Positions 2,259-51,427 of a stretch of 52,325 nt of DNA are shown in pieces. The DNA is taken from assembly GCA_949289345.1 (NCBI GenBank), contig CASENS010000105.1:1-52325 (forward strand), given 5' to 3'. Position numbers and translations under genes: made by a program. The stretch comes from an uncultured Bacteroides sp. Its GTDB lineage: Bacteria; Bacteroidota; Bacteroidia; Bacteroidales; Bacteroidaceae. Below the pieces are notes generated by a model. That model did no database searches. It had not been told where the DNA came from and saw only the letters and a program-made list of their open reading frames with translations. The stretch's first letter is position 1; each line of letters begins with the position of its first letter.

Positions 2259-2346
2259 AAGCATACTGTCTTTTGCCTTGAAACATACTATCCTTTAGGT
2301 CAAAACATACTATCTTTTGCCCCAAAACATACCATCTTTTGTTTCA
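2259..2346 (+). repeat. Array A: four tandem 22-bp units
   Basis: Four units with exactly 22-bp spacing start at 2259, 2281, 2303 and 2325. The shared core is AAACATACTATCTTTTG, followed by five variable bases (units end CCTTG, GGTCA, CCCCA and TTTCA). The units are closely related to arrays at 28749-28836 and 39814-39901. Units 2 and 3 can pair partly (CAAAA with TTTTG, GG with CC). Confidence 0.85.
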
Positions 2347-2471
2347 TTGTCGGCAGGCTCTCTTATTATTTCGGGCCGGTCTGAAAATCCGGCTGTGAAT
2401 TGTTGATAGATATAATTATAAACTTACTTGTGCCGGTGGCCTGGCTGTCGTTGGTTATCCGTCCAGGTATT

Positions 2472-2540
2472 ATTGGATACTTTGGCGTTTATCCAATGAT
2501 ACTTCGCTATTTATCCTTGGATACTTTTGCAACCGTGTTT
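2472..2540 (+). repeat. Array B: three 22-bp-phased GATAC units with inverted repeat
   Basis: GATAC recurs at 2476, 2498 and 2520, exactly 22 bp apart, and ATCC recurs at 2491 and 2513. The first unit is also a hairpin: ATTGGATA (2472-2479), a 10-base loop, and TATCCAAT (2490-2497). The same TTGGATA-N10-TATCCAA design appears at 32819-32864. Confidence 0.7.
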
Positions 2541-2660
2541 TCGGACTGTCTGCCCCTTTGTCCTCATAGTTAAAGTGCCGTTTTCACAAGTGTCCGGAAA
2601 GCACTGCAAACAAGCGGATTAAGGGTGTTGAAAACTTGTTCGTGTTTTTTTGTGAAATCC

Positions 2661-2693
2661 TTGCGGGTTATCGGGGAGAAATGTGTACTTTTA
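2661..2693 (+). promoter_or_regulatory. Possible promoter of the division/cell-wall cluster
   Basis: TACTTTTA at 2686-2693 is close to the TAnnTTTG -7 box, about 28 bases before the rsmH ATG. A TTG at 2661-2663 is the nearest upstream element, at 22 bases, a little longer than usual. The match is weak and no other candidate is better placed. Confidence 0.35.
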
Positions 2694-2720
2694 CGCTCGA
2701 TTTCAAAAAAACGAACGTAC

Positions 2721-3656
2721 ATGAGCGCAGAAGAAACCATATACCATATTCCGGTCCTGCTGAAACCGAGTGTGGACGGCTTGAACATTCGTCCGGCCGG
2801 TGTCTATGTAGACGTTACTTTCGGGGGAGGCGGCCATTCGCGCGAAATCCTTTCCCGGCTGGGAACCGACGGGCGTTTGCTGAGTTTTGACCAGGATGAA
2901 GACGCCGAACGCAACGTCATGGACGACCCGCGTTTCACTTTTGTCCGTAGCAATTTTCGCTATCTGCACAACTTCCTCCGTTATTACGATGTGGAGCCGG
3001 TGGATGGCATCTTGGCAGACTTGGGCGTTTCTTCCCATCACTTTGACGATTGTGAACGCGGATTTTCATTCCGTTTCGAAGGGAATTTGGATATGCGTAT
3101 GAACAAACGGGCGGGCATGACGGCGGCCGATGTGGTCAATACGTACGATGAAGAGCGTTTGGCGGACTTGTTCTATCTGTATGGTGAATTGAAGAACAGC
3201 AGACGGTTGGCGGCCGCCCTTGTTAAAGCCCGCGGCTTCCGGAAAATTGAGACAATCAGTCAGTTTCTGGATGTGGTAAGTCCGCTTTTCGGGCGCGAGC
3301 GAGAGAAGAAGGATTTGGCCAAAGCTTTCCAAGCTTTGCGCATCGAAGTTAACCGGGAAATGGATGCGTTGAAAGAGATGCTGCAAGCCGCTATACGGGC
3401 ATTGCGTCCGGGAGGAAGGCTGGTGGTCATCACTTATCACTCGTTGGAGGATCGGATGGTGAAAAACATCATAAAGGCCGGCAACGTGAATGGGAAAGTG
3501 GAGCAGGATTTTTATGGACATGTACAGACGCCGCTTAAGGCGGTGAACAACAAGGTCATCGTGCCCGATGAAGAAGAGTTGGAACGTAATCCGCGTTCGC
3601 GTAGCGCCAAATTGAGAATAGCGGAAAAAATAGGAGGGACAGGGAATGGAAAATAA
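2721..3656 (+). CDS. rsmH: 16S rRNA (cytosine1402-N4)-methyltransferase
   Basis: RsmH (MraW) methylates N4 of C1402 in the 30S decoding centre using SAM. With the ATG at 2721 the protein is 311 residues, the usual length; the longer frame from 2625 adds a non-conserved leader and is less likely. Visible family motifs are DVTFGGGGHS (31-40) for SAM binding, LADLGVSSHHFDD near 98-110, and a C-terminal VVITYHSLEDRMVK block. It opens the division/cell-wall cluster, and its 3' end overlaps ftsL by 11 bases. Confidence 0.95.
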   Translation: MSAEETIYHIPVLLKPSVDGLNIRPAGVYVDVTFGGGGHSREILSRLGTDGRLLSFDQDEDAERNVMDDPRFTFVRSNFRYLHNFLRYYDVEPVDGILADLGVSSHHFDDCERGFSFRFEGNLDMRMNKRAGMTAADVVNTYDEERLADLFYLYGELKNSRRLAAALVKARGFRKIETISQFLDVVSPLFGREREKKDLAKAFQALRIEVNREMDALKEMLQAAIRALRPGGRLVVITYHSLEDRMVKNIIKAGNVNGKVEQDFYGHVQTPLKAVNNKVIVPDEEELERNPRSRSAKLRIAEKIGGTGNGK

Positions 3657-3999
3657 GCAAAATGATGCCCCGGGCAAGGAAAAGTCTATAAAGCGTACCT
3701 CGTGGAAAAGTGTCATCGGAGGTGATGTCCTGGCAACGGATTTCTTCCGCCGTCAGACCAAGCTGTTGGTGCTGATTATGACACTTATTATCTTCTATAT
3801 CCATAACCGCTATGCGTGCCAGCAGCAGCTGATTGAGATTGACCGGCTGAAAAAGGAACTGACAGACATCAAATACGACGCCTTGACGCGCAATTCGGAA
3901 TTGATGGAACGCAGTCGCCAGTCGCATATTGAAGAATATATATCGACCCGTGAAAGTGAGCTGCAGACGGCTACTCAGCCTCCGTATGTGATAAAATGA
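3646..3999 (+). CDS. ftsL: FtsL-like cell-division protein
   Basis: A 117-residue bitopic protein with a basic cytoplasmic N-terminus, one membrane helix near residues 38-55, and a predicted coiled coil near 58-90 (heptad-like QQQLIEIDRLKKELTDIK). Size, topology and position between rsmH and the division transpeptidase are those of the Bacteroidetes FtsL-like family, which joins FtsB and FtsQ in the divisome. Sequence similarity to proteobacterial FtsL is not visible, as is usual for this fast-evolving protein. It overlaps rsmH by 11 bases. Confidence 0.8.
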   Translation: MENKQNDAPGKEKSIKRTSWKSVIGGDVLATDFFRRQTKLLVLIMTLIIFYIHNRYACQQQLIEIDRLKKELTDIKYDALTRNSELMERSRQSHIEEYISTRESELQTATQPPYVIK

Positions 4000-4071
4000 A
4001 GTGAAAAAGAGGAAAACGTGGATTTTGTAAGGGCGAACTAATTTGTAAATCGTTAAATCGTGAATGTATAG

Positions 4072-6192
4072 ATGGCAGTAAATAAAAAAAATATAATGAC
4101 CCGTTACTTCTTCGTCGTGTTGTTGCTGTCGCTGGTGGGCATCGCCATCGTCGTGAAAGCGGGCGTCATCATGTTTGCCGAACAACAATACTGGAAGGAT
4201 GTGGCCGACCGCTTTGTGCGTGAAGGCGTGCCGGTAAAGCCTAACCGGGGCAATATCCTGTCGGCCGATGGGAAACTGATGGCCAGCTCACTGCCCGAAT
4301 ACCGCATCTACATGGACTTTAAGGCTGGAGGCTATAAAAAAGACACCATGCTGATGAACCATCTGACGGAGATTTGTGAAGGACTGCACCGGATATTTCC
4401 CGACCGTAGCGCGGCCTGGTTTAAGGCTCACTTGCTGAAAGGACGTAAAAAGGGTAGCCAGAACTACCTGATATATCCCAAACGCATTTCATACATTCAG
4501 TATAAGGAAGCTAAGCGGTTGCCGGTATTCAACCTGAATAAGTACCGGGGGGGATTTCACGAACTGGCTTATAACCAACGTAAAAAGCCATTTGGATCCT
4601 TGGCCGAACGTACGCTGGGGGATGTGTACGCGGATGCTGCCCAAGGGGCGAAGAATGGCATTGAACTGGCTTTTGATACCTTGCTGAAAGGGCAGGAAGG
4701 CATCACACATCGCCAAAAAGTGATGAATAAGTATCTGAACATTGTGGACAAACCGCCCGTAGACGGATGCGACATCATTACGACCATTGACGTCGACATG
4801 CAGGACATCTGTGAAAAAGCACTGATGGATAAACTGAAGGAATTGCAGGCTGTATGGGGGGTGGCGGTGCTGATGGATGTGCAGACAGGAGATGTAAAGG
4901 CGATTGTCAACCTCTCGCGTTGTGCGGATGGTAACTATCGCGAACGGCAGAACCTTGCCATCAACGCCTTGATGGAGCCCGGTTCCACTTTTAAGACGGC
5001 TTCTATCATGGTTGCCTTGGAAGACGGCAAAATAACGCCCCACACAACTGTAGATACAGGCAATGGCGTGATGAAGATGCACGGTAGCCTGATGCGGGAT
5101 CATAATTGGTATCGTGGCGGTTATGGATTGATTGATGTCACTCGCATCATTGAGGTCTCGTCCAATATTGGCGTGTCATACCTCATTGACCAGAACTATA
5201 AAGATAACCCGCAAAAATTTATAGACGGACTGCGGCGCATGAGCATTGACCAGCCGTTGCATCTGCAAATACCGGGTGAAGGAAAGCCTTACATAAAAAA
5301 CGCCGATGACCCCAGTTTCTGGCACACCAGCTTGCCGTGGATGAGCATCGGATACGAGGTGCAGCTGCCACCCATCAATGTGCTGACATTTTACAATGCC
5401 ATCGCCAACAATGGTACAATGGTGAAGCCGCGTTTCGTGACTCGTGCCTTGAAGGATGGTGAGACGGTGGAAGAGTTCCCCGTAGAGGTCATCAATCCCA
5501 AGATTTGTTCTGATAAAACTTTGGCGGAGATGCGGACCATCCTGCAACGGGTCGTAAGTCATGGCTTGGCCAAACCTGCCGGAAGTAAGCAGTTCCATGT
5601 CTCGGGTAAGACCGGAACGGCGCAAGTGGCCGGGGTGGGAGGATACAAAACAGGGAAACGCAACCATTTAGTCAGCTTCTGCGGCTATTTCCCTTCGGAA
5701 GCGCCTAAATACAGTTGCATTGTATCCATACAGATTGACCGGGGCGTACCTTCGGGAGGAGGCATGGCGGGCAGTGTGTTTGGCAAAATTGCCGAACGGG
5801 TTTATGCGAAAGACTTGCGGCTGGATTTGGCGAATGCCATTGACAGCACAACGAATGTCATTCCTTCCGTGAAAACGGGAAATCTGAATGAAACGTTGCT
5901 GGTGTTGGACGAGTTGGACATACCTGTCCTGCAGGACTTTCACAAGTCAAAGGATAAAAACCTGTGGGGACATGCAGGGCAAACGCCTGATGGCGTGGTT
6001 CTACAAGAAAAGGATTTTGCGGCGAATCTTGTTCCCAGTGTGATAGGCATGGGGGCCAAAGATGCTGTTTACCTGTTGGAAAGCCAGGGACTGCGTGTGC
6101 GGCTCAGCGGTGTAGGCAAGGTACGACGGCAATCCATTGCGGCAGGAAACCGACTGGTAAAAGGACAAACCATCAGTTTGCAGCTGCGTTAA
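4072..6192 (+). CDS. ftsI: Division-specific penicillin-binding protein (FtsI/PBP3) with PASTA domain
   Basis: A 706-residue class B PBP that cross-links septal peptidoglycan. It has a short cytoplasmic tail, one membrane helix (about 11-33), a PBP dimer-type domain, and a transpeptidase domain with all three active-site motifs: S305-T-F-K308, S363-S-N365 and K513-T-G-T516. The last 70 residues (VPSVIGMGAKDAVYLLESQGL and following) form one PASTA repeat, common in Bacteroidetes FtsI. The ATG at 4072 is used; an ATG eight codons later is also possible. It lies between ftsL and murE in the same transcription unit. Confidence 0.95.
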   Translation: MAVNKKNIMTRYFFVVLLLSLVGIAIVVKAGVIMFAEQQYWKDVADRFVREGVPVKPNRGNILSADGKLMASSLPEYRIYMDFKAGGYKKDTMLMNHLTEICEGLHRIFPDRSAAWFKAHLLKGRKKGSQNYLIYPKRISYIQYKEAKRLPVFNLNKYRGGFHELAYNQRKKPFGSLAERTLGDVYADAAQGAKNGIELAFDTLLKGQEGITHRQKVMNKYLNIVDKPPVDGCDIITTIDVDMQDICEKALMDKLKELQAVWGVAVLMDVQTGDVKAIVNLSRCADGNYRERQNLAINALMEPGSTFKTASIMVALEDGKITPHTTVDTGNGVMKMHGSLMRDHNWYRGGYGLIDVTRIIEVSSNIGVSYLIDQNYKDNPQKFIDGLRRMSIDQPLHLQIPGEGKPYIKNADDPSFWHTSLPWMSIGYEVQLPPINVLTFYNAIANNGTMVKPRFVTRALKDGETVEEFPVEVINPKICSDKTLAEMRTILQRVVSHGLAKPAGSKQFHVSGKTGTAQVAGVGGYKTGKRNHLVSFCGYFPSEAPKYSCIVSIQIDRGVPSGGGMAGSVFGKIAERVYAKDLRLDLANAIDSTTNVIPSVKTGNLNETLLVLDELDIPVLQDFHKSKDKNLWGHAGQTPDGVVLQEKDFAANLVPSVIGMGAKDAVYLLESQGLRVRLSGVGKVRRQSIAAGNRLVKGQTISLQLR

Positions 6193-6220
6193 ATATTAGA
6201 GGGTATAAATTGTGAGATAT

Positions 6221-7702
6221 ATGATACTGAATGAACTATTGAAAGCTATACAGCCGGTGCAGGTCATCGGGGATACGGACGTTGAGATAACCGGTGTCAA
6301 CATAGACTCCCGCCAAGTGGAAAACGGCAATTTGTTTATGGCTATGCGGGGCACGCAAACCGACGGGCATGCTTACATCTCCGCTGCCATCGGAAAAGGT
6401 GCGGGAGCCATCCTGTGTGAGGATCTTCCGGAACAATTGCAGAACGGTGTAACCTACATACAGGTGAAGGATTGTGAGGACGCCGTTGGCAAAGTGGCGA
6501 CCACCTTTTACGGTAATCCTACTTCGAAAATGAAACTGGTGGGCGTGACAGGTACTAACGGAAAAACCACTGTCGCCACCCTATTATATCATGTGTTCAG
6601 CTATTTTGGTTATAAGGTCGGGCTGATATCTACGGTCTGCAACTACATAGGCAATCAGCCTGTTCCCACCGAACACACTACGCCCGATCCCATTACGCTA
6701 AATCGCTTGTTGGGGCAAATGGCTGATGCTGGTTGTAAGTATGCCTTCATGGAAGTGAGTTCGCACTCTATCGTACAGAAACGTATCAGCGGGTTGCATT
6801 TTGCCGGAGGCATCTTCACAAACTTGACGAGAGACCACTTGGACTATCATAAAACCGTAGAGAATTATTTGCGTGCCAAGAAGAAATTTTTCGATGATTT
6901 GCCTAAGAGCGCCTTCTGTTTGACCAATCTGGATGATAAGAACGGAATGGTGATGACTCAAAACACCCGTGCGAAGGTATGCACATATTCATTGCGCAGC
7001 CTGGCGGATTTTAAGGGACGTGTGCTGGAGTCTCACTTTGAGGGCATGTTGCTCGACATTAATCACCATGAAGTCGCTGTGCAGTTCATCGGGCGCTTTA
7101 ACGCTTCCAACCTCCTGGCCGTGTTTGGCGCGGCAGTGCTTTTAGGCAAAAAGGAAGAGGACGTCTTGGTCGCTCTCAGCACTTTGCATCCGGTAGCGGG
7201 ACGTTTGGATACCGTCCGTTCGCCGGAAGGTTTTACGGTCGTCATTGATTATGCCCACACGCCCGATGCGCTGACAAATGTACTGAACGCCATTCACGGC
7301 GTGTTGGAAGGCAGAGGGAAAGTAATCACCGTCGTTGGGGCTGGTGGTAACCGTGATAAAGGCAAACGCCCTCTGATGGCTAAGGAGGCCGCACGCCAGA
7401 GTGACCGCCTTATCATCACCAGTGACAATCCCCGCTTTGAGGAACCGCAGGACATCATGAATGATATGTTGGCCGGACTTGATAACAATGATATGCGGAA
7501 GACATTGAGCATTGCCGACCGTCGCGAAGCCATCCGGACTGCCTGTATGCTGGCTGGGAAAGGGGATGTGGTGCTTGTTGCCGGCAAGGGGCACGAAAAC
7601 TATCAGGAAATAAAAGGAGTGAAACATCACTTCGATGATAAAGAAGAAGTTATCGCATTTACTGAGAACCAAATGTCAAGTGCATGTAAAGACGGTGAAT
7701 GA
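6221..7702 (+). CDS. murE: UDP-MurNAc-L-Ala-D-Glu:meso-DAP ligase
   Basis: Adds the third stem-peptide residue to the peptidoglycan precursor in the cytoplasm, using ATP. The product is 493 residues from the ATG at 6221; a GTG at 6212 would add three. The ATP-binding motif GTNGKTT is at about 111-117. The substrate-specificity motif D402-N-P-R405 marks meso-diaminopimelate rather than lysine as the amino acid added, in keeping with Bacteroidales wall chemistry. It sits between ftsI and mraY. Confidence 0.96.
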
Positions 7703-7728
7703 TAAATTGTAAATTGTAAGTTAAAAAG

Positions 7729-8997
7729 ATGTTGTATTATTTATTCCGTTGGCTCGACCAATTCGATTTTCCGGGTGCGGGTATGTTTGCCTACACTTCT
7801 TTCCGGGCACTGATGGCCGTCATCCTGGCGTTGCTCATTTCAACGATATGGGGTGACCGCTTTATCCGTTTGCTGAAGCGGAAACAAATCACGGAGACTC
7901 AGCGCGACGCCTCTGTCGATCCCTTTGGCGTGAACAAGACGGGCGTGCCGAGCATGGGGGGAGTCATCATAATTTTTGCCACCTTGTTGCCCTGTCTGTT
8001 GCTGGGACGGCTGGGCAACATCTATATGATACTGATGCTCATCACTACCGTATGGCTCGGTTCGTTGGGCTTTGCCGATGATTACATCAAAATATTCAAG
8101 CGCGACAAGGAAGGATTGCATGGCAAGTTCAAAATTATCGGGCAAGTGGGGCTGGGACTGATTGTAGGCTTGACTTTGTACCTCAGCCCGCAAGTTGTCA
8201 TTCGTGAAAACATTGAGGTGGAGCAGCCCGACGGACAGACGGAAGTGGTGCATGCTGCCAAGGAAATAAAAGCCACGCAGACTACCATTCCTTTTTTTAA
8301 AAGCAACAATCTGGATTATGCCGACATGATGGGCTTCCTGGGAGAGCATGCGCAGACGGCCGGCTGGATACTTTTTGTGCTGGTCACCATCTTTGTGGTG
8401 ACAGCGGTGAGCAACGGAGCCAACTTGAATGACGGCATGGACGGCATGGCTGCAGGCAACTCGGCCATCATGGGTGTCACGCTTGGTATACTGGCCTACG
8501 TGTCCAGTCACATCGAGTATGCAGGTTATCTTAACATCATGTACATACCCGGTTCGCAGGAATTGGTAGTCTTCGTATGTGCTTTCATTGGGGCGCTTAT
8601 CGGGTTCCTGTGGTACAATGCTTATCCGGCACAGGTGTTCATGGGTGATACGGGCAGTCTCACTATTGGCGGTATCATTGCTGTGCTGGCCATCATCATC
8701 CACAAGGAACTGCTGATACCGATACTATGCGGGGTGTTTCTGGTGGAGAACCTTTCGGTCATCCTGCAACGGGTTTACTATAAAATGGGGAAACGTCGTG
8801 GAGTGAAGCAACGCCTTTTCAAGCGGACGCCCATACACGACCACTTCCGGACTGGTATGAACTTGGTGGAACCGGGCTGCCGGGTGGTGTTTACGAAGCC
8901 TGACCAGCTGTTCCACGAGTCTAAGATAACTGTACGTTTCTGGATTGTAACCATTATTCTGGCTGCAATTACTATTATAACATTGAAAATCAGATAA
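7729..8997 (+). CDS. mraY: Phospho-MurNAc-pentapeptide translocase
   Basis: MraY transfers phospho-MurNAc-pentapeptide from UDP to undecaprenyl phosphate, making lipid I at the inner face of the membrane. The 422-residue product has about ten membrane helices and the conserved signatures GFADDYIKIFKRDKEGL, NLNDGMDGMAAG and the TPIHDHFR histidine loop. The length, longer than the roughly 360 residues of proteobacterial MraY, reflects an insertion around residues 160-200 (VIRENIEVEQPDGQTEVVH region), usual in Bacteroidetes. It lies 26 bases after murE and 23 before murD. Confidence 0.96.
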   Translation: MLYYLFRWLDQFDFPGAGMFAYTSFRALMAVILALLISTIWGDRFIRLLKRKQITETQRDASVDPFGVNKTGVPSMGGVIIIFATLLPCLLLGRLGNIYMILMLITTVWLGSLGFADDYIKIFKRDKEGLHGKFKIIGQVGLGLIVGLTLYLSPQVVIRENIEVEQPDGQTEVVHAAKEIKATQTTIPFFKSNNLDYADMMGFLGEHAQTAGWILFVLVTIFVVTAVSNGANLNDGMDGMAAGNSAIMGVTLGILAYVSSHIEYAGYLNIMYIPGSQELVVFVCAFIGALIGFLWYNAYPAQVFMGDTGSLTIGGIIAVLAIIIHKELLIPILCGVFLVENLSVILQRVYYKMGKRRGVKQRLFKRTPIHDHFRTGMNLVEPGCRVVFTKPDQLFHESKITVRFWIVTIILAAITIITLKIR

Positions 8998-9020
8998 AAG
9001 AACTCATAAATAGATATAGG

Positions 9021-10355: not shown

Positions 10356-10388
10356 TCCGTCAATCATTTACTATTAATCATTCAAGAA

Positions 10389-15058: not shown

Positions 15059-15167
15059 CAGGAGGAAGCCGGACATGGTAAGGTATATGCAGTCCACCGT
15101 CCGTGAACTGTATAGAGTAAGTAGTAAAACTGTAAATAGTACATAGGTAAACCGAAAATAAAAAAAT

Positions 15168-23083: not shown

Positions 23084-23089
23084 TCAAGG

Positions 23090-23155
23090 ACATTCCCCGG
23101 CCTCGTCGGACTCATCCCCCGGATGCGTGCCCGACGAAGCCTGGGGACGTTCCTG
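23090..23155 (+). terminator. Long GC-rich hairpin after the TonB receptor gene
   Basis: Just after the stop, GGAC...CCCCGGCCTCGTCGG on the left pairs with CCGACGAAGCCTGGGG...GTTCC on the right, around an inner CATCC/GGATG hairpin. The stem has a few mismatches. It is followed by the 22-bp array rather than by a simple T run, so it could act as terminator or as a 3'-end stabiliser. Confidence 0.5.
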
Positions 23156-23160
23156 TGAAA

Positions 23161-23248
23161 AAGGCTTTTTCATCCTACCAATAAGCCTTTTTCGTCCTGT
23201 CAATAAGGCTTTTTCGTCTTACTAAAAAGCCTTTTTCGTTAAGACAAA
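23161..23248 (+). repeat. Array C: four tandem 22-bp units with alternating complementary cores
   Basis: Units start at 23161, 23183, 23205 and 23227. They begin alternately AAGGCTTTTTC and AAGCCTTTTTC, so successive units carry a G-to-C swap that restores pairing: AAGGCTTTTT at 23205-23214 pairs with AAAAAGCCTT at 23224-23233, and GAAAAAGGCTT ending at 23165 or so pairs with AAGCCTTTTTC at 23183-23193. Confidence 0.85.
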
Positions 23249-23398
23249 CCTCGGGCTCGTCAGCCACGAAGCCGAGACTTGACGGGCACAAAGCCTAAGG
23301 AAGGGGCGGAGAACCCCGAATGATTCCCAAATTGTTCCCAAATCGGGTTATAGATTTGGGCGTGAAAACAAGAAGTTTAATCTTATAAATAACTGAAA

Positions 23399-28511: not shown

Positions 28512-28742
28512 GTCAAGGAACTGATTGCCGCTTTCCACGACGCCGTGGACGATTATTTGGAGTATTGCAGGGACGAAGGAATAGAACTCCACAAAAGTTA
28601 TTCGGGGTCGCTGGACATCCGTATTTCTCCCGAAACTCACAGCCGTATAGCTGTACTGGCCAAACAGGCCGGGATTTCAATGAATGCATTCGTCAAGTCG
28701 GCGGTAGAGAAACAGATTGCGACGATGACTTCCGGTCTGTAA
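28512..28742 (+). pseudogene. 5'-truncated HicB-family antitoxin remnant
   Basis: The frame from 28512 reads VKELIAAFHDAVDDYLEYC, then the typical HicB C-terminus: HKSYSGSLDIRISPETHSRI followed by AVLAKQAGISMNAFVKSAVE. An in-frame stop lies at 28506-28508, and the N-terminal half of HicB (about 45 residues) is missing in all three plus frames upstream. A GTG at 28545 could start a 65-residue product, but it falls inside the conserved AVDDYLEY segment. No hicA gene is adjacent. The remaining part is the ribbon-helix-helix or HTH DNA-binding region, so a short DNA-binding peptide cannot be excluded. Confidence 0.75.
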
Positions 28743-28748
28743 ACAAAA

Positions 28749-28836
28749 AAGCATACATTCTTTTGCCTCAAAACATACGACCTTTTGGGGCAAAGGATAG
28801 TTAGTTTTGCCCCAAAAGATACTATCTATTCTTTTA
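28749..28836 (+). repeat. Array D: four tandem 22-bp units, related to array A
   Basis: Units start at 28749, 28771, 28793 and 28815, seven bases after the hicB remnant stop. Unit 1 (AAGCATACATTCTTTTGCC) closely matches unit 1 of arrays A and E. CTTTTGGGGCAAA (28782-28794) at the unit 2/3 border pairs perfectly with TTTGCCCCAAAAG (28806-28818) at the unit 3/4 border, a 13-bp stem with an 11-base loop. Confidence 0.85.
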
Positions 28837-32818: not shown

Positions 32819-32864
32819 CCCAAGTATGCTTGGATAAACGGCAACGTATCCAAGCATACTTGGG
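32819..32864. repeat. Perfect 18-bp inverted repeat, also 22-bp phased
   Basis: CCCAAGTATGCTTGGATA (32819-32836), loop AACGGCAACG, TATCCAAGCATACTTGGG (32847-32864). Words of the type AnGTAnnC recur at 32822, 32844 and 32866, 22 bp apart. The centre repeats the TTGGATA-N10-TATCCAA design of the array at 2472. It lies 40 bases beyond the stop of the BACON lipoprotein gene (minus strand), so it may act as a terminator although no T run follows. Confidence 0.7.
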
Positions 32865-32904
32865 CAAGTAACCAATGATGGCTTGAAGGGGTAGCGTAAG
32901 TGGC

Positions 32905-39751: not shown

Positions 39752-39813
39752 AGAACCTTGCCGGCTCTCCATGCCGGACCGATGATTGAACCGGATTTGT
39801 CCATCGGACGGGC

Positions 39814-39901
39814 CGTCCGAAATCACCGTATGTTTTGGGTCGGAAGACAGTTAGTTCCGCTTCAAAAGACTGTATGATTTGAGGCAAAAGAGTGTATGTT
39901 T
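39814..39901 (-). repeat. Array E: four 22-bp units on the minus strand, related to arrays A and D
   Basis: On the minus strand the units cover 39901-39880, 39879-39858, 39857-39836 and 39835-39814. Unit 1 is AAACATACACTCTTTTGCC, nearly identical to unit 1 of array D, and both are preceded by AAACAAAAAA. At the unit 2/3 border TTTTG..GCGGAA pairs with TTCCGA..CAAAA: different bases from array D, same pairing. Confidence 0.8.
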
Positions 39902-39991
39902 TTTTGTTTACAAAGCAGAGGATTCTCATTCCGTGCAAAGTGTAAATGTTAATAATTGCTTTTTGAGGATGCGTGTTTTGCAGGAAAAGAC

Positions 39992-40010: not shown

Positions 40011-40063
40011 CAAAATGTGGAAAGATTTGAGTAGCTTGCAACCACAGAAAAAAATGCTAAAAC
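40011..40063 (+). promoter_or_regulatory. SAM-II-like riboswitch in the metK leader
   Basis: P1 is TGTGG (40016-40020) paired with CCACA (40042-40046). The loop carries GATTT (40024-40028), TAGC (40032-40035) and TTGCA (40036-40040); the downstream strand is AAAAT followed by GCTAAAA (40051-40062). This order, P1, GAUUU...UUGCA, closing P1, then AAAU-GCUAAAA, follows the SAM-II consensus known from Alphaproteobacteria and Bacteroidetes, and the TAGC/GCTA and ATTT/AAAT matches fit its pseudoknot. Placement before SAM synthetase supports feedback control. Confidence 0.65.
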
Positions 40064-40077
40064 ACATACTTTTCTGA

Positions 40078-41540: not shown

Positions 41541-41577
41541 CCGGTACGGGCATGTCGTTTTTTTGAAGGAAAATTCC

Positions 41578-41585
41578 TACCTTTG
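41578..41585 (+). promoter_or_regulatory. -7 box of the LOG gene
   Basis: TACCTTTG, a full TAnnTTTG match, 35 bases before the ATG at 41621. The nearest TTTG (41562-41565) is too close, so the -33 element is uncertain. Confidence 0.45.
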
Positions 41586-41620
41586 CCTGCGATTAAACCA
41601 GAAAGTGAAGAGCGTAAACT

Positions 41621-42945: not shown

Positions 42946-42948
42946 GAC

Positions 42949-44312: not shown

Positions 44313-44335
44313 AAACTACACCATATTATATATAT

Positions 44336-44980
44336 ATGTCTTATCCGGTCGATATCCATACGCATCGTTTGCCCCTTGTGCCTGGAGAAGCTATTGTGAA
44401 TTGCATGCCCGACACGTACCTTCCCCAACCCCGGAACTGGTATTCCGTAGGCCTTCATCCTTGGCGTTTGGACAGATATGACTGGGAAGATGCCACCTTC
44501 CGGTTTGCGTTTGAGGCCATCCTCTGCCATCCGCAGGTGATAGCGGTAGGTGAAGCGGGGTTGGATAAACTGGTATCAACGCCACTCGCACGCCAGATGG
44601 AAGCGTTCCGTTATCAGGCCGGGCAAGCCGATGCCCTTGGCAAGCCGCTCATTATCCATGCGGTGAAAACCATCGATGAACTGCTGGCTTTGCGGAAAGA
44701 ACTGCGGCCTTCTGTGCCTTGGATTATCCACGGATTTCGTGGAAAACCCTCCCAAGCCGACGCTTATCTGCGTCATGGCTTCTATTTGTCCTTTGGAGAG
44801 AAATACAATGAAGATGCCTTGAGGCGTACTCCTTTTGACAAGTTGTTTTTAGAAACAGACGAAAGCGAGGAAGGCATAGCCAAACTCTATGAGCGTGCTG
44901 CCGGTGTGTGTGCCTTGCCGCTCCCTGTGGTGAAAGAAAACATCGCCCGTAATATCCGTAAAGTCTTTTTTAGCCGTTAA
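44336..44980 (+). CDS. TatD-family metal-dependent hydrolase
   Basis: A 214-residue protein, shorter than E. coli TatD (260), as usual for the Bacteroidetes version. Metal ligands are in order: DIHTHR, GEAGLD, IIHAVKT, IHGFRG and ETDES. TatD enzymes are 3'-5' exonucleases/DNases. The ATG at 44336 is preferred; a TTG at 44309 overlapping the yidD stop would add nine residues. Confidence 0.87.
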   Translation: MSYPVDIHTHRLPLVPGEAIVNCMPDTYLPQPRNWYSVGLHPWRLDRYDWEDATFRFAFEAILCHPQVIAVGEAGLDKLVSTPLARQMEAFRYQAGQADALGKPLIIHAVKTIDELLALRKELRPSVPWIIHGFRGKPSQADAYLRHGFYLSFGEKYNEDALRRTPFDKLFLETDESEEGIAKLYERAAGVCALPLPVVKENIARNIRKVFFSR

Positions 44981-44982
44981 GT

Positions 44983-45013
44983 TTTGTTTCTTCAAAGAAA
45001 GGTCGTACTTTTG
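44983..45013 (+). promoter_or_regulatory. tyrS promoter
   Basis: TTTG at 44983-44986, spacer of exactly 19 bases, TACTTTTG at 45006-45013. The TTTG begins three bases past the tatD stop. Start near 45020, leader about 37 bases. Confidence 0.75.
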
Positions 45014-45056
45014 CGGCAAAGAAACACACTTAAATCATTAAACGATCAATCATTCG

Positions 45057-46349
45057 ATGAATTTTGTAGAAGAATTAAGATGGCGTGGCATGCTCCACGA
45101 TATGATGCCCGGCACTGAAGAGCTGCTGGCAAAGGAACAAGTGACTGCTTACATTGGTTTTGACCCCACGGCTGATTCGTTGCACATCGGACACCTGTGC
45201 AGTGTGATGATTCTTCGTCATTTCCAACGTTGTGGACACAAGCCGTTGGCCCTTATCGGAGGTGCTACAGGTATGATTGGCGACCCTTCGGGCAAGTCGG
45301 CTGAACGCAACCTTCTGACGGAGGAAACATTGCGGCATAACATAGAGGGCATGAAGAGACAGCTGAGCAAGTTCCTGGACTTCGATTCTGACGCTCCCAA
45401 CCATGCCGAGTTGGTGAACAATTACGATTGGATGAAAGACTATACGTTCTTGGATTTCGCCCGCGAAGTGGGTAAACACATCACCGTGAACTACATGATG
45501 GCAAAGGACAGCGTGAAGAAGCGTCTGAACGGTGAGGCACGCGACGGACTGTCATTCACGGAATTCACTTACCAGCTGTTGCAAGGCTATGACTTCCTCC
45601 ATTTGTATGAGACTAAGGGATGCAAACTCCAGATGGGAGGCAGCGACCAGTGGGGAAACATTACAACCGGTGCCGAACTGATTCGCCGTACCAATGGCGG
45701 TGAGGTGTATGCCTTGACTTGTCCGTTGATAACGAAAGCCGATGGCGGCAAGTTCGGTAAGACCGAAAGCGGCAATGTCTGGCTTGATCCGCGCTATACG
45801 TCACCTTATAAGTTCTACCAATTCTGGCTCAACGTGAGCGATGAGGATGCCAAGCGTTACATCAAGATATTTACCGCCTTGAGCAAAGAGGAGGTTGAGG
45901 CTCTGACAGCCGAGCACGAAGCGGCTCCGCATCTGCGCGTTCTTCAGAAGCGTCTGGCCAAGGAAGTCACTGTCATGGTACACTCCGAAGACGATTACAA
46001 TGCAGCCTTGGAGGCGTCTAATATCCTTTTTGGCGGAGGCACGTCCGAAGCTTTGCGAAAATTGGACGAGGCTACGTTGCTGTCCGTGTTCGAAGGAGTT
46101 CCCCAGTTCGAAGTTTCCCGCGATGCTTTGGGAGCCGGTGTGAAAGCCGTGGATCTGTTGACTGAGCAGGCTCCCGTATTCTCCTCAAAGGGTGAGATGC
46201 GTAAGCTGGTACAAGGTGGCGGCGTATCGTTGAACAAAGAGAAACTCGCGGCTTTTGACCGTGTCGTCACTACCGGCGATTTGTTGGATGACAAGTATTT
46301 GCTTGTTCAACGCGGCAAGAAAAACTATTATCTGATTATTGCGAAGTAA
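45057..46349 (+). CDS. tyrS: Tyrosyl-tRNA synthetase
   Basis: Charges tRNA-Tyr. The 430-residue class I synthetase has the HIGH-type motif HIGHL ([13 protein letters not shown]), the tyrosine/ATP region [14 protein letters not shown], the KMSKS-type loop KFGKTESG, and a C-terminal S4 RNA-binding domain ([14 protein letters not shown]). It has its own promoter and a shared terminator with dprA. Confidence 0.97.
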
Positions 46350-46376
46350 ATATTGAACTCTGATTTTTTTCATTGG

Positions 46377-46407
46377 AAAGCCTGGTGCCGGATGGTATCA
46401 GGCTTTT
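46377..46407. terminator. Bidirectional terminator between tyrS and dprA
   Basis: AAAGCCTG (46377-46384), 14-base loop, CAGGCTTT (46399-46406), with a T run on both sides (TTTTTTT before on the plus strand reading the other way, CTTTTA after). It overlaps the dprA stop codon. Confidence 0.65.
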
Positions 46408-47524
46408 ATGCCAATAAATGATATACTCCGCCTACCATAGTCTTGACCACGCTTTTCATTTCCAACTCGAAAAGCAGCGAGAGCATGCGGTTGATTGGGA
46501 TGTCGGTTTCTACGACCAAATTGTTGATATGTGAGTCTCCCCGGCTCAATATTCTGACAATGCGGGTCTCTTCTTCCGACAATTCGGGGAAAAGACTACG
46601 TTGGATGCCTTCCGTTTGCCGTTTGTTTGTATCGCGTCCCCAATTCATGGCTTTCACGAAATCGGAAGCGTCGTTTATTAAGGCGGCTTTGTTGTCCCTG
46701 ATCAACTCGTTGCATCCGCGTGAGAATTCGTCCGAAACACGTCCCGGTACGGCGAAGCAGTCGCGATGATAGCTTCCTGCCAGGCCGGCGGTAATCAAAG
46801 AACCGCCTTTAGCCGCTGATTCCACTACAATAACCGCATCGCTCATGCCTGCCACGATACGGTTGCGGCTGACAAAATTGTATCGGTCCGGTTCTGTGCC
46901 TTTCAAGAACTCGGTCAGCAATCCGCCTTGTTCCAGCATGTCAATGGCGGTTTTGCGATGGACCGATGGATAAATACGGTCTAATCCGTGGGCCAGTACA
47001 GCCACTGTAGAAAGTTTATTGGCTAATGCCGCCCGATGGGCATGCACATCTATCCCGTAAGCCAATCCGCTGACTATCAGCAGTTCCGGACATAAGCTGG
47101 AAAGGTCGTGCAAGAAGTCGGTACAAAACGCCTTGCCATGTTCCGTCGCACGCCGGGTGCCTACCATGCTGACTACCCGCAGCCGGTTCAAGTCTGCGTT
47201 CCCTTTAAAGAAAAGCACCAGCGGCGCGTCTTCACACTCGCGCAGACGTGACGGATAGCGCTCGTCTGTCAGCGTCAGACACTCAATACGGTTTCTTTCG
47301 GCAAACTCCAACTCCTGTTCTGCGCGCTGGAAAGCTGAAGGGTTGTCCAACGCGGAAATCACATTCGCGGAAACCACTCCGGCGTGGCGTTCGTTCAATT
47401 CTCCTCGCAAACGGAACACATCGGCGGCGCTGCCGACAGTTTCTACCAAACGTTTGGCTACGGTATGCCCCACGCCTTGACACAGCGTTAAGGCTATGCT
47501 GCAAATACGCTCGTCGCTATTCAT
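46406..47524 (-). CDS. dprA: DNA-processing protein DprA
   Basis: DprA loads RecA on incoming single-stranded DNA. The 372-residue protein has an N-terminal helix-hairpin-helix-like region (CQGVGHTVAKRLVETVG), the Rossmann-like core with MVGTRRATEHGKAF, IVSGLAYGIDVHAHRAAL and TVAVLAHGLDRIYPSVHR, and a C-terminal winged helix (VETDIPINRMLSLLFELEMK). Start is the ATG at 47524, which overlaps the thioesterase gene by 8 bases; the frame from 47554 extends into it. Confidence 0.93.
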   Translation of the reverse strand: MNSDERICSIALTLCQGVGHTVAKRLVETVGSAADVFRLRGELNERHAGVVSANVISALDNPSAFQRAEQELEFAERNRIECLTLTDERYPSRLRECEDAPLVLFFKGNADLNRLRVVSMVGTRRATEHGKAFCTDFLHDLSSLCPELLIVSGLAYGIDVHAHRAALANKLSTVAVLAHGLDRIYPSVHRKTAIDMLEQGGLLTEFLKGTEPDRYNFVSRNRIVAGMSDAVIVVESAAKGGSLITAGLAGSYHRDCFAVPGRVSDEFSRGCNELIRDNKAALINDASDFVKAMNWGRDTNKRQTEGIQRSLFPELSEEETRIVRILSRGDSHINNLVVETDIPINRMLSLLFELEMKSVVKTMVGGVYHLLA

Positions 47525-47927
47525 GGGTAAAATAAGGGGCAAAAACGTTGTCAAACAAATTGCTGTCGGTCAGGCGGCCGTTCACTACACATACCGTTTC
47601 CACTACGCCTTTCAACGCGAGCTTGCCGTCCGCCTTGCGGTAGATGTCCTGGTAGAACACATACTTGATGCCTTCTTTCTTCAGGTAAAGTTTGGACAAG
47701 AAGACGTCACCGCTTCGCAAAGGTGTCTTGAAGGCCATGGATATGCGGGCCACTACGGGGTCTACCCCCTGTTCGTGCAGGGTGGCGAAGCTGATGCCTG
47801 TTGAGGTGAGGAACTCGTGGCGTGTGTGTTCCAGATAGTGTTGGTAGTTGGCGTTGTTCACAATGCCTTGCAGGTCGCATTCATAGTCGCGCACCTTCAT
47901 TTCCAGTTCATAGATGTATTTGTCCAT
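47517..47927 (-). CDS. 4HBT/YbgC-type acyl-CoA thioesterase
   Basis: A 136-residue hot-dog-fold protein. The active-site stretch RDYECDLQGIVNNANYQHYLEHTRHEFL carries the DxxGhVNNaxY motif, with the aspartate near residue 18. Such enzymes hydrolyse short- or medium-chain acyl-CoA or acyl-ACP. It lies 6 bases after the U32 gene and overlaps dprA by 8 bases. Confidence 0.88.
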   Translation of the reverse strand: MDKYIYELEMKVRDYECDLQGIVNNANYQHYLEHTRHEFLTSTGISFATLHEQGVDPVVARISMAFKTPLRSGDVFLSKLYLKKEGIKYVFYQDIYRKADGKLALKGVVETVCVVNGRLTDSNLFDNVFAPYFTHE

Positions 47928-47933
47928 ATGTGT

Positions 47934-49217
47934 TTATCCTCGTTGATGTTCTACGTCCAAGCCTTTAAATCGCTTCAGTTCCTCCAGCGACACCAGTTTA
48001 TAGAGCTTGTCACTGGGGCGTATCTTGTCACACTTCATGGAGAAGTGCTCGCCCTTGTGTACCACGGGCACGGGCTTGAGGTCGACGCGTGCCTCCTCTA
48101 ATGTCATGTAGATGGCTCCTGTCGTCGGTCCGGTAATCAGCAGCTTGTCTCCCGCGTTCAGCTCGGCGGCTTCCACCACAAACTCTGCCACGCCGATGTT
48201 GGAGAAGTATTTCACTCCTTTGCCTACATAGATCTTGCGTTCCGTGGCTGCCGAGCCGTAGTTCTTTGTCCATTCGCCCAAGCGTTGCCCTAAGTAGTAG
48301 CCGTCCCAGAAGCCACGGTTGAACACCGTAGCCAGCCGGCGGTTCCACTCCTCTATCTTCTCGTCCGTGAACGTGCCCTCCACATAGGCCCGCACCGCCT
48401 CCTTGTAGCATTCCGCTACGGTGCGCACGTACTCCGGCCCGCGTGCACGGCCTTCTATCTTGAACACCCGTACGCCCGCATCCATCATCTTGTTGAGGAA
48501 ATGGATAGTCTTCAGGTCCTTGGGGGACATGATGTACTGGTTGTCTATCTCCAGTTCGGCGTCCGTTTCCTTGTCGCGTACGATGTACGACCGGCGGCAC
48601 ACCTGCATGCACGCTCCCCGGTTGGCCGAGTTGTTCATCTGGTGGAGTGAGAGGTAGCACTTGCCGCTGACGGCCATGCACAAGGCTCCGTGGCAGAACA
48701 TCTCGATACGCACCGGTTGTCCGGAAGGCCCGCAGATGTGCTCCTCTTCAATGGCGCGGTGGATGACTGCCACTTGGTCGAGGTTCAGTTCGCGGGCCAG
48801 CACCACCACGTCGGCAAACTGGGCGTAAAAGCGCAGGGCCTCCACGTTGCTGATGTTGAGCTGCGTGCTGAGGTGCACCTCCTGGCCTATCCGGCGTGCG
48901 TAGGTCATCACCGCCACGTCCGCCGCGATGATGGCCGAGATGCCCGCCTCGTGCGCCGCGTCCACAATGGCGCGCATCAGCGCCAGGTCGTTGTCGTAGA
49001 TGATGGTGTTGACGGTCAGGTAGCTCTTCATCCCGTGCTCGTTGCAGGTGCGGGCTATTTCCTTCAGGTCGTCGGTGGTGAACGTGTTGGCCGAGCGTGC
49101 CCGCATGTTCAAGTTCTCGATGCCGAAGTAGATGGAGTCTGCTCCGGCCTGTATGGCGGCGGCCAGTGACTCGCGCGAGCCTACAGGCGCCATGATTTCA
49201 AAGTCTTTGGTGTCCAT
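47934..49217 (-). CDS. U32-family protein (TrhP-like tRNA hydroxylation protein)
   Basis: A 427-residue protein of peptidase family U32. The TIM-barrel start APVGSRESLAAAIQAGADS and the cysteine-rich block MFCHGALCMAVSGKCYLSLH, then NNSANRGACMQVCRRSY, are typical; four cysteines in this family hold an iron-sulfur cluster. In E. coli and B. subtilis, relatives (TrhP and others) are needed for 5-hydroxyuridine at position 34 of tRNA, so a tRNA-modifying role is more likely than proteolysis. It follows the HEPN gene after 8 bases. Confidence 0.87.
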   Translation of the reverse strand: MDTKDFEIMAPVGSRESLAAAIQAGADSIYFGIENLNMRARSANTFTTDDLKEIARTCNEHGMKSYLTVNTIIYDNDLALMRAIVDAAHEAGISAIIAADVAVMTYARRIGQEVHLSTQLNISNVEALRFYAQFADVVVLARELNLDQVAVIHRAIEEEHICGPSGQPVRIEMFCHGALCMAVSGKCYLSLHQMNNSANRGACMQVCRRSYIVRDKETDAELEIDNQYIMSPKDLKTIHFLNKMMDAGVRVFKIEGRARGPEYVRTVAECYKEAVRAYVEGTFTDEKIEEWNRRLATVFNRGFWDGYYLGQRLGEWTKNYGSAATERKIYVGKGVKYFSNIGVAEFVVEAAELNAGDKLLITGPTTGAIYMTLEEARVDLKPVPVVHKGEHFSMKCDKIRPSDKLYKLVSLEELKRFKGLDVEHQRG

Positions 49218-49225
49218 TGTTTCTT

Positions 49226-49642
49226 CTATAGGTTTGATGGTTCTTTGGTTAGAGACTCAACCGTGTTGATAAATGCTTCAGCCCTTGGCCGAAGCAGTTC
49301 AACCAACCCTGCATCGCAATAGGCAAAATCACTGTAGTCGCTGCTATGACGTTTGTCAAAAAGCAGTCCGAATGTAGTGCTGTGTTCTATCCCAAGCTTG
49401 CCGGTACGGACAAAATGCATAGACAACTGCGTTTTTACTCCGTTATGTGTCGCGGTTTCTATTCCTCGGCTCAACAGCAAGGCTACTGCCGCATAGTAAC
49501 AAGCATAATACAACCGGTTGATAGCCGCGTTGAAGTAACCGCCCTGGTAGAGCAAATCGGCCTCTCCCAACGTGCTGTGAGCACGCTCTAAACGATAGTT
49601 TACAATGGCTTTTCGAGTTTCTTCATCCAGCTGCTGCTTCAT
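49226..49642 (-). CDS. HEPN-domain protein (UPF0332 type), partner of MNT
   Basis: A 138-residue helical protein from the ATG at 49642. The HEPN core AAINRLYYACYYAAVALLLSRGI is clear, followed by THNGVKTQLSMHFV and LLFDKRHSSDYSDF, the RxxxDY feature of the UPF0332 subgroup. A strict RX4-6H ribonuclease motif is not in its usual C-terminal place; R59-x6-H66 is one possible match. With the MNT gene in front (4-base overlap) it forms an MNT-HEPN pair, in which HEPN proteins are often toxins that cut tRNA or mRNA. Confidence 0.8.
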   Translation of the reverse strand: MKQQLDEETRKAIVNYRLERAHSTLGEADLLYQGGYFNAAINRLYYACYYAAVALLLSRGIETATHNGVKTQLSMHFVRTGKLGIEHSTTFGLLFDKRHSSDYSDFAYCDAGLVELLRPRAEAFINTVESLTKEPSNL

Positions 49643-49950
49643 AACAGTATTCCCTCCCGATTGACGTTGATAGTAAACGGGCTGGCCATCTGTTCCCACA
49701 CCCGTCGTAAGGTAACCAGTGCATTGATCGCCACGCCCGTCTGAGCCTCAAGCGCTGAAAGCGGACGGCGCAACTCCAGTTCCTTTTCGGGCGTAGGCGC
49801 CTCGTCACCTTCAAGTAAGATAAGAATGTCTATGTCCGAGTCCGGGCGGGCGTCGCCACGCGCTTCCGAACCATACACGATGGTCTGTGCCGTAGGGGCG
49901 ATATGATGGACAGCGTTAGCTATCATCCGAAGTATTTCCAAACGTTTCAT
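49639..49950 (-). CDS. MNT-family nucleotidyltransferase (antitoxin-type)
   Basis: A 103-residue minimal nucleotidyltransferase. GSEARGDARPDSDIDILI fits the GSx10DxD active-site motif of MntA-type enzymes, which add AMP to the HEPN partner and silence it. First gene of the minus-strand run MNT-HEPN-U32-thioesterase-dprA; -7 box TACCTTTG on the minus strand (plus CAAAGGTA, 49978-49985) lies 28 bases upstream, back to back with the dusB promoter. Confidence 0.85.
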   Translation of the reverse strand: MKRLEILRMIANAVHHIAPTAQTIVYGSEARGDARPDSDIDILILLEGDEAPTPEKELELRRPLSALEAQTGVAINALVTLRRVWEQMASPFTINVNREGILL

Positions 49951-49977
49951 ACAAGCGGCATTTTACGATTACTGCGC

Positions 49978-50035
49978 CAAAGGTACGAATAATCCTCCGC
50001 TTCTTCGCATATCTTCCCGTTTTTCCCTACTTTTG
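49978..50035. promoter_or_regulatory. Divergent -7 boxes for the MNT operon and dusB
   Basis: Minus strand TACCTTTG (plus CAAAGGTA, 49978-49985) for MNT, plus strand TACTTTTG (50028-50035) for dusB, 22 bases before its ATG. No TTTG at the usual spacing for dusB. Confidence 0.5.
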
Positions 50036-50056
50036 CAGCCTAAATGAGAGTGAATT

Positions 50057-51043
50057 ATGAAGATACGAGACATTGACCTGGGCACGCGTCCCGTGATGCT
50101 GGCCCCCATGGAGGACGTCACCGACCCTGCCTTCCGACTGATGTGCAAACGCTTCGGGGCCGACATGGTGTACACCGAGTTCGTGTCGGCCGACGCGCTG
50201 ATACGCTCCGTCAGCAAGACGGAACAGAAACTCGCCATCGCCGACGAGGAACGCCCCGTGGCCATCCAGATATACGGACGCGACACGGCAACCATGGTGG
50301 AGGCCGCGCGCATCGTGGAGCGGGCGCGCCCCGACGTGCTGGACCTCAACTTCGGCTGCCCCGTCAAGCGGGTGGCCGGCAAGGGAGCCGGAGCCGGCAT
50401 GCTGCAGAACGTGCCCCTGATGCTGGAGATAACCCGCGCCGTGGTGGACGCCGTGCGCATACCCGTCACCGTCAAGACACGCTTGGGATGGGACGACGGA
50501 CACAAAATCATCGTCACACTGGCCGAACAGTTGCAGGACTGCGGCATCGCCGCCCTCACCATCCACGGCCGCACCCGGGCACAGATGTACACCGGCGAGG
50601 CCGACTGGACACTGATAGGCGAGGTGAAAAACAACCCCCGCATGCACATCCCCATCATCGGCAACGGCGACATCACCACCCCCCAGCGCGCCCGCGAGTG
50701 CTTCGACCGCTACGGCGTGGACGCCGTCATGATAGGCCGCGCCAGCTTCGGCCGCCCCTGGATATTCCGCGAGGTGAAGCACTACCTGCAGACGGGACAG
50801 GAGCCGGACACCCTTACCCCGCACTGGAAGCTGGACGTGTTGCGCCAAGAGGTGGAGGACAGCGTCAGCCTCCTGGACGAACGCCGGGGCATCCTGCACG
50901 TACGCCGCCACCTGGCAGCCACACCCCTCTTCAAAGGCATACCCAACTTCCGGGAGACACGCATCGCCATGTTGCGGGCCGAGACCAAGGCCGAGCTCTT
51001 CGCCATCCTCGACCGCATCGGGGCGGAGTACCTTCCCCGCTGA
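50057..51043 (+). CDS. dusB: tRNA-dihydrouridine synthase
   Basis: Reduces uridine to dihydrouridine in tRNA D loops with FMN and NADPH. The 328-residue protein has the N-terminal LAPMEDVTDPAFR block, NFGCPVKRVAGKGAGAG with catalytic Cys101, VTVKTRLGWDD, the HGRTRAQMYTGEADW block for FMN phosphate, and GNGDI...IGRASFGRPW. The B-type name rests on overall similarity and is less certain than the family. Strong C-ending codon bias. Confidence 0.92.
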   Translation: MKIRDIDLGTRPVMLAPMEDVTDPAFRLMCKRFGADMVYTEFVSADALIRSVSKTEQKLAIADEERPVAIQIYGRDTATMVEAARIVERARPDVLDLNFGCPVKRVAGKGAGAGMLQNVPLMLEITRAVVDAVRIPVTVKTRLGWDDGHKIIVTLAEQLQDCGIAALTIHGRTRAQMYTGEADWTLIGEVKNNPRMHIPIIGNGDITTPQRARECFDRYGVDAVMIGRASFGRPWIFREVKHYLQTGQEPDTLTPHWKLDVLRQEVEDSVSLLDERRGILHVRRHLAATPLFKGIPNFRETRIAMLRAETKAELFAILDRIGAEYLPR

Positions 51044-51069
51044 CACTTCCACATCCCCCCTTCCCGCAG

Positions 51070-51220
51070 GAGGGTGTGCCGAAATGCAGAAACAAGTCCC
51101 ATCTTGCTTTGTCTAAGGGAGCAAAGCGAAGGGTCTCCCGTTTGTTTTCGCTAATAGGAGATGCTTCACATACGTTCAGCATGACAAAATGATAGCTACT
51201 TTTCATTTCGGCACACCCTC
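51070..51220. mobile_element. MITE-like element with perfect 17-bp inverted ends
   Basis: GAGGGTGTGCCGAAATG (51070-51086) and CATTTCGGCACACCCTC (51204-51220) bound 117 bases without coding capacity. The inner part has a GGGAG...CTCCC palindrome and a GGAGATGCTTCACATACGTT stretch of the sort found in small dispersed elements. No target-site duplication is clear. The right end abuts the 24-bp array exactly. Confidence 0.7.
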
Positions 51221-51339
51221 TCCCTTTATGCGGACGCACTTCACTCCCTTTATGCAGTCACACTTCACCCCTTTTATGCAGTCACACTTCACTCCCCTTA
51301 TGTGGTCACAGTCCACTGTCCTTATATGTATTCAGTTCA
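51220..51339 (+). repeat. Array G: five tandem 24-bp units
   Basis: Units start at 51220, 51244, 51268, 51292 and 51316. The shared pattern is CTCCCTTTATG, a variable GCAGTCACAC-like part, and TTCA. Similarity decays to the right. It joins array F with no gap. Confidence 0.85.
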
Positions 51340-51427
51340 TATGTCGGGCGAAATAATTGACTATGTCGGCCGAAATATAAAATTATGTCGCCCGAAATAG
51401 TAAATTATGTCGGTCGACATACTGGCT
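51340..51427 (+). repeat. Array F: four tandem 22-bp units with complementary centres
   Basis: Units start at 51340, 51362, 51384 and 51406, each beginning TATGTCGnnCGA. Unit centres are TCGGGCGA, TCGGCCGA, TCGCCCGA and TCGGTCGA. Unit 1 is the reverse complement of unit 3 in this part, unit 2 is its own complement, and unit 4 is within a palindrome ATGTCG-GT-CGACAT. Confidence 0.85.

Follow-up and report, generated by a model that had tools for sequence, protein, structure and literature searches.

Tandem repeats that keep a constant unit length while their sequence varies were described in Bacillus by Subirana and Messeguer, and repeats of 20 to 23 nt are reported from many groups (PMC8161180). 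That work terms such repeats enigmatic and puts forward helix turns, nucleoid proteins, and small RNAs as conjectures on what lies behind the 20 to 23 nt period. A second described system, BrickBuilt, comes from Porphyromonas gingivalis, a member of the order Bacteroidales, and consists of a 23-nt minisatellite lying within a miniature inverted-repeat transposable element (MITE) (PMC4596501). According to that paper, BrickBuilt occurs in 19 copies in one strain, always between genes, with target duplications on 3 of 4 intact copies. Here, we consider short 22-bp tandem arrays at seven intergenic sites (A to F and H) in a contig of 52,325 nucleotides (C105, hereafter the window) from the draft genome of an uncultured Bacteroides sp. 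of the same order (3.44 Mb in 126 contigs, 92% complete).

A first-pass annotation of the window knew of no named element with these features. The kind of element is in fact already known from the two papers above, and what is added here is a tie to dispersed elements, units with dyad symmetry, and presence or absence at a defined gene junction. The literature searched, which mostly excluded subscription papers, yielded no account of 22-bp arrays in Bacteroides. The genus studied is related to culturable Bacteroides, and the cause of the fixed period is therefore open to direct test.

A sharp 22-bp period between genes

The exact 22-bp phasing proposed for the seven sites was seen at every one of them. 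Per 66 positions compared at a lag of 22, matches numbered 49 at A, 37 at B, 51 at C, 39 at D, 38 at E, 50 at F, and 36 at H, the best-scoring positions being displaced by between a few and about 30 bases. Period 22 was found independently by Tandem Repeats Finder for A, B, C, and F; the program gave period 44 for array C as well and returned one extra 22-bp array at 15106-15160 that the first-pass annotation had missed; D, E, and H are absent from its output for the window. At a threshold of at least 36/66, the window holds 7 places at lag 22 and 0 to 2 at each other lag from 15 to 59, save lag 48 with 4, this lag being twice the period of a 24-bp array. One tandem array with a 24-bp period and roughly four units stands directly before array F (51212-51325; Tandem Repeats Finder) and is an exception to the 22-bp rule.

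The same period dominates the wider genome. In 648 kb of N-free sequence, made up of the window and the start of contigs C1-C28 and C30-C41 (at most 20 kb from each), the 36/66 threshold yielded 39 places at lag 22 and 13 at lag 44, and every other lag from 12 to 60 gave at most 9. A simple, hexamer-based gene prediction assigned about 85% of this sample to coding sequence, and 38 of the 39 lag-22 places together with all 13 lag-44 places fell between genes; intergenic places at the remaining lags did not exceed 3, save lag 45 with 5. When 257 intergenic stretches of at least 90 bp (88 kb) were taken alone, 36 places appeared at lag 22. A set of 100 dinucleotide shuffles averaged 0.09 and never exceeded 1, and the other lags from 16 to 30 gave 0 to 3. 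Period 22 thus stands clear of its neighbors from 18 to 26, the comparison by which the first-pass annotation had proposed to judge it. The same annotation had explained 22 bp as two turns of B-DNA, which is too loose an account because the adjacent lags 21 and 23 hold 1 and 3 places, respectively, and the peak at 22 is sharper than two helix turns would demand.

The excess extends through the genus. One sample of 20 stretches (400 kb from five genomes, two stretches having been picked for matches resembling array A) contained 15 lag-22 places, and a second sample of 311 kb from twenty other genomes contained 8; over both samples, the other lags from 17 to 29 gave 0 to 6. Among 30 loci around metK, including that of this genome, 13 places were found at lag 22 and 0 to 2 at other lags from 18 to 26. 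The 23 metallophosphoesterase loci of relatives gave 7 places at lag 22, 4 at lags 21 and 23, 3 at lag 18, and none at the others from 17 to 28. Outside the genus, an excess is not shown. Ten genomes from other families of the order (272 kb) had 2 places at lag 22, with no excess, and 0 at 40/66 or above. Named metK loci of near relatives (Bacteroides and Mediterranea) had 5 at lag 22 and 6 at lag 24 (4 and 1 at 40/66), those of other Bacteroidales had 10 at lag 22 (an (AC)n run among them) and 12 each at lags 21 and 24, and those of other Bacteroidota had none at lag 22 in 422 kb.

Across all samples, 78 lag-22 arrays fell into 52 sequence clusters, in a count from which genes were not filtered out and into which at least one place (L148/L218) entered twice. 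At the other lags covered by this count (17, 19, 20, 23, 25, and 26), arrays numbered 2, 2, 6, 11, 1, and 1. Together with the intergenic excess, this supports at the scale of genome and genus the suggestion, first made for the window, that it is the period and not the sequence that is kept. Unit number is less constant: with a rule that extends arrays from three units up to an upper limit, four units are present in 46 of 100 arrays pooled over the samples, three in 32, five in 11, six in 8, and seven in 3, so that four, taken at first as a fixed feature, is the commonest count in a range of 3 to 7.

The arrays do lie between genes, as had been noted, whereas their position just past a stop codon is only partly borne out. 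By the simple gene prediction, the nearest predicted stop is 0 bp from D, 21 from H, 63 from E, 67 from C, 121 from F, 289 from A, and 469 from B. Forty arrays of the 648-kb sample divide into 12 between convergent genes, 20 between codirectional genes (median about 120 bp past the upstream stop), 5 between divergent genes, 2 at contig edges, and 1 within a gene. Counted over regions of at least 90 bp, arrays occupy 11 of 29 convergent, 17 of 141 codirectional, and 5 of 45 divergent ones (Fisher p 0.0011, convergent versus rest).

Array families and their modules

Arrays A, D, and E had been taken as related in sequence, and all three prove to belong to one family (family A), D and E being weak, diverged copies. 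The element with array A spans 2246..2353 on the plus strand, has units at 2259, 2281, 2303, and 2325 as placed by Tandem Repeats Finder, and agrees with the family consensus at 63/83 positions. Array D (28743..28836, plus strand; 64/83) begins directly after the stop codon of a predicted open reading frame at 28545-28742, and array E (39806..39914; 74/83), a minus-strand copy, has a biotin/lipoate ligase-like gene on one side and the metK SAM-II riboswitch on the other. Rfam places that riboswitch at 40011-40070, and at gathering thresholds it is the only Rfam family in the window. No claim is made for the region upstream of metK as an array hotspot, an idea dropped because the upstream gene is not conserved.

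A Blast search with array A listed 28 matches in the genome, a number that counts some places twice, once per strand. In 29 copies that were oriented and aligned, units 1 to 4 each carry the same unit-specific bases, which shows that whole modules were copied. Column-wise conservation drops near positions -13 and +95 relative to unit 1, in a profile of 35 rows that includes some reverse duplicates. Family A is present in 3 of 41 genomes of the genus, this one included.

Site B and the hairpin at 32819-32864 (site H) had been listed as separate, weaker 22-bp sites. The period was seen at both (37/66 and 36/66), and they are here corrected to members of a single family, H being a short copy on the minus strand (32822..32879) that matches the B consensus at 49/58 positions. 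The element at B (2377..2548, plus strand) has a MITE-like layout, with a left inverted repeat at 2377-2395, a 22-bp array at about 2450-2526, and a right inverted repeat at 2530-2548, as delimited by an 18-copy alignment and an end-pattern match. The consensus of these 18 copies has a 19-bp end, CAGTCCGAAAATCCGGTTG, that recurs inverted at the other end, where it adjoins the array; full copies are about 170 bp long, and 6 of the aligned copies have no recognizable left part. The end pattern had 30 matches in the genome and its reversed control had 1. Both ends occur 164-173 bp apart, with at most 6 mismatches each, in 13 of 32 loci (14 rows were listed, one being a second reading of L330). 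In the search for the family, 40 of 101 first-look candidates were scored, and matches numbered at least 40.

Arrays C and F had been described as unrelated to the other sites. Array C (23151..23248, plus strand) has four units whose cores can be seen directly to alternate between AAGGC and AAGCC, and it matches three other places in the genome, on contigs C9, C7, and C25; GC-rich inverted repeats appear by eye to flank it on both sides (23085-23290). Array F (51334..51427, plus strand) has four units with TCGNNCGA cores, is predicted to fold as one long hairpin, and gave no match elsewhere in this genome. Among further multi-copy types in the 648-kb sample, those with TTAAC and GAAACA cores have flanks common to their copies by eye, and copies of the type with TTAGAAAC cores have no visibly common flanks. 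The additional array of the window (15098..15163, plus strand; Tandem Repeats Finder) lies just before ftsA, and its dyad score is not above control.

The neighbors of array C are genes for a TonB-dependent receptor and a metallophosphoesterase, and the junction between them can be followed through the genus. Of 24 genus loci with the metallophosphoesterase gene, including that of this genome, 19 also have the end of the receptor gene just before it, and L358, L362, L370, and L371 have no receptor match. The spacer is 7-37 bp in ten genomes (L352, L355, L356, L357, L360, L365, L366, L367, L368, and L369) and 154-315 bp, filled by a lag-22 array, in five (this genome, L359, L361, L363, and L364). 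The arrays at this junction are of three types, namely array C, arrays with GGTGCACC cores, and arrays with TTTAAA cores; a fourth type lies equally far ahead of the metallophosphoesterase gene in L351, in which the receptor is unmatched. On a midpoint-rooted FastTree phylogeny of the metallophosphoesterase, read with support values not considered, genomes with short and with filled spacers are intermingled. Short and array-filled spacers at one junction indicate that arrays come or go at a single place. By eye, the junction arrays of L359, L361, L363, and L364, which belong to G014 and to G001/G009/G012, may represent a single array that has diverged, with core becoming spacer and spacer becoming core. 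The junction between the FtsX-like and MraW genes proved unusable for the same kind of comparison, as the loci of relatives have no MraW gene.

A stretch at 2150-2230 has complementary ends (GGCAAGAAC/GTTCTTGCC) and matches seven genomes of the genus across 38-87 bases, with identities of 83-100%. In 5 of the 7, an FtsX-like gene is found within 1.5 kb, and the arrangement seen in the window recurs only in L171. The stretch belongs to no Rfam family at the gathering threshold and is perhaps a terminator or a small RNA.

Explanations for the fixed spacing

On balance, we favor the reading that the arrays form the core of small insertion elements that are non-coding, dispersed, MITE-like, and built like BrickBuilt, with units held at 22 bp by a fixed protein or hairpin register on the DNA; the mobilizing enzyme and the binding protein are ones that we infer. 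The first-pass annotation had offered a structured-RNA 3' end, a nucleoid-protein site, and a self-copying repeat, and the last of these fits best, given the dispersed copies, the terminal inverted repeats of B, and the short, array-free orthologous junctions. The modules would be spread by a transposase acting in trans and would settle where insertion does little harm, that is, between genes and most often between convergent ones. At least three units, often dyad-symmetric and held at exactly 22 bp, would imply that something contacts successive units in a fixed register along the DNA. The contacting factor would most likely be a dimeric DNA-binding protein, either the mobilizing enzyme or a host nucleoid protein, tiling or bridging neighboring units. 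The dyad symmetry itself was scored over three units, and in 24 of 44 arrays the summed score was reached by at most 5 of 100 column-permuted controls.

Several results weigh against mobile elements with a protein-set register. Dyads are not universal: 20 of the 44 arrays do not stand out, cluster consensus units reach p<0.05 in 14 of 52 cases, and 35 of 99 arrays passed the dyad cut used for a permutation test. Terminal inverted repeats are established for B and not for A, C, or F, and a search for a second copy of array F in this genome found none. No transposase flanked by such ends was found, the end pattern of B occurring in pairs about 150 bp apart or alone; Y1 transposases (PF01797) have 0 matches in this genome at 92% completeness and are present in 9 of 41 genomes of the genus. 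Family B has no match in plasmid and phage collections, and target site duplications around B are suggestive only, the best z of 3.85 coming from 392 settings with a mean of 1.35. No binding protein for the arrays was identified, nor is any gene class enriched among 47 neighbors of 27 arrays. At the array C junction, four genomes (L349, L350, L353, and L354) have spacers of 85-292 bp that contain no lag-22 array. Finally, double changes that keep the dyad hint at pairing between strands rather than at a dimer site, although the slid control is high there too. Such changes made up 36 of 58 double changes within units, versus 18/79, 18/82, 25/77, and 22/76 at slid positions, for which a complementary reference pair was not required. 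In a permutation over the 35 arrays, compensatory changes numbered 99 versus 57 +- 9.8, above all 300 shuffles; the control slid by -1 likewise exceeded all of its 300 shuffles (42 versus 18.8 +- 5.2), and we therefore do not rest the reading on compensatory change.

A bolder proposal, which we regard as doubtful, is that a single machinery of the Bacteroidales reads geometry, recognizing dyads or extruded hairpins at exactly 22 bp and spreading or maintaining many unrelated families, so that the ruler and not the sequence would be the heritable signal.

The units could instead act in transcripts, as hairpins that end or stabilize messages either singly or pairwise (as 44-nt hairpins). This is unlikely as a general account, even though C, D, F, and H have better predicted folds than their dinucleotide shuffles over both strands (z -3.7 to -11.1), array C has its period of 44 with alternating cores, and convergent regions are favored (11/29). 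For arrays A, B, and E, the folding signal is weak (z -0.9 to -2.9). RNAalifold assigned an energy of 0.0 to the 29 family A copies on both strands, and pairwise covariation over the same copies gave no support for structure at the transcript level. Mismatches of the G-T and A-C kinds are about equally frequent, at 20 versus 18 in A stems and 14 versus 10 in codirectional arrays, with no clear G-T excess in either. Pairing between units fares no better, since complementarity between units is no higher than within them (0.56 against 0.55) and identity at lag 44 exceeds that at lag 22 in 13 of 88 arrays, which had been chosen by lag 22; alternation of neighboring units is accordingly rejected as a general feature. 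Arrays are also found far from stop codons, the codirectional median of about 120 bp included, and in divergent regions. The structured-RNA 3' end of the first-pass annotation is thus not sustained as a general reading, and an element acting at the DNA level is preferred because family A has no common fold, G-T and A-C mismatches are balanced, and only C, D, F, and H fold well singly.

Arrays of operators, with each family serving as sites for its own dimeric transcription factor and the spacing reflecting cooperative binding on one helix face, seem rather improbable. Dyad-symmetric units at a fixed spacing would suit them, and phage operators have comparable spacing. The neighboring genes show no enriched class, and the regions most often occupied are convergent ones, which as a rule have no promoters. 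A lag of 21 would keep nearly the same helix face, yet it is as rare as other lags, and a single period is common to many sequence families.

Still less probable, in our view, is a purely mutational origin. Replication errors templated by hairpins (quasi-palindromes) would then turn short palindromes into perfect ones and duplicate them, and the 22-bp length would stem from this process and serve no function. The dyad-keeping double changes, more frequent than at slid positions, and the turnover of families between species would agree with such an origin. Against it, the count in the control slid by -1 is also high, copies of A and B have spread as whole modules rather than being made in place, and such a process should yield mixed periods. 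Chance or a compositional artifact has next to no prospect of accounting for the lag-22 places. In its favor, weak sites like B, H, and E (36-38/66) would not stand if each were taken alone. The counts at other lags speak against it in the window, in the sample of this genome, at the metK loci, and across samples, and in the intergenic stretches dinucleotide shuffles and the other lags refute it.

Comparison with described repeats

Repetitive extragenic palindromes (REP), including the composite BIME form, are short, intergenic, palindromic, and dispersed, as are many of the arrays here, and are associated with Y1 (RAYT) transposases (PMC3733652). A REP system with a RAYT transposase was rejected for this genome, in which, at 92% completeness, Y1 matches number 0. 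A tandem arrangement in an exact 22-bp register is not known as a feature of REP sequences.

The constant-length repeats and the arrays described here both have a constant period with differing sequence, several unrelated families per genome, a non-coding location, and restriction to particular species (PMC8161180). The non-coding location is matched here by 38 of 39 lag-22 places, and the shared length in unrelated families by the 52 clusters at lag 22. The program SATFIND, used for those repeats, searched for at least 4 regular repeats, and by our own extension rule 68 of 100 arrays have at least four units and 32 of 100 have three. Relative to the repeats as presented there, the arrays described here are more diverged, often have three units, and carry dyad units in about half of cases. 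At least two families reside in dispersed modules, one of them ending in inverted repeats, and an orthologous site has an array in some genomes and none in others.

BrickBuilt offers a parallel in architecture (PMC4596501). It likewise combines a leader, a tandem repeat, and a tail, it has terminal inverted repeats, a trait found here for B only, and stem loops formed by its dyads have been considered. It differs in having a 23-nt unit, a length of up to about 1 kb, a single sequence family, and ends like those of insertion sequences, in place of the 22-bp units, short arrays, and many families seen here. Because the unit is 22 bp and not 23 nt, the likeness is one of architecture, and we describe the arrays as elements that work like BrickBuilt rather than as members of it.

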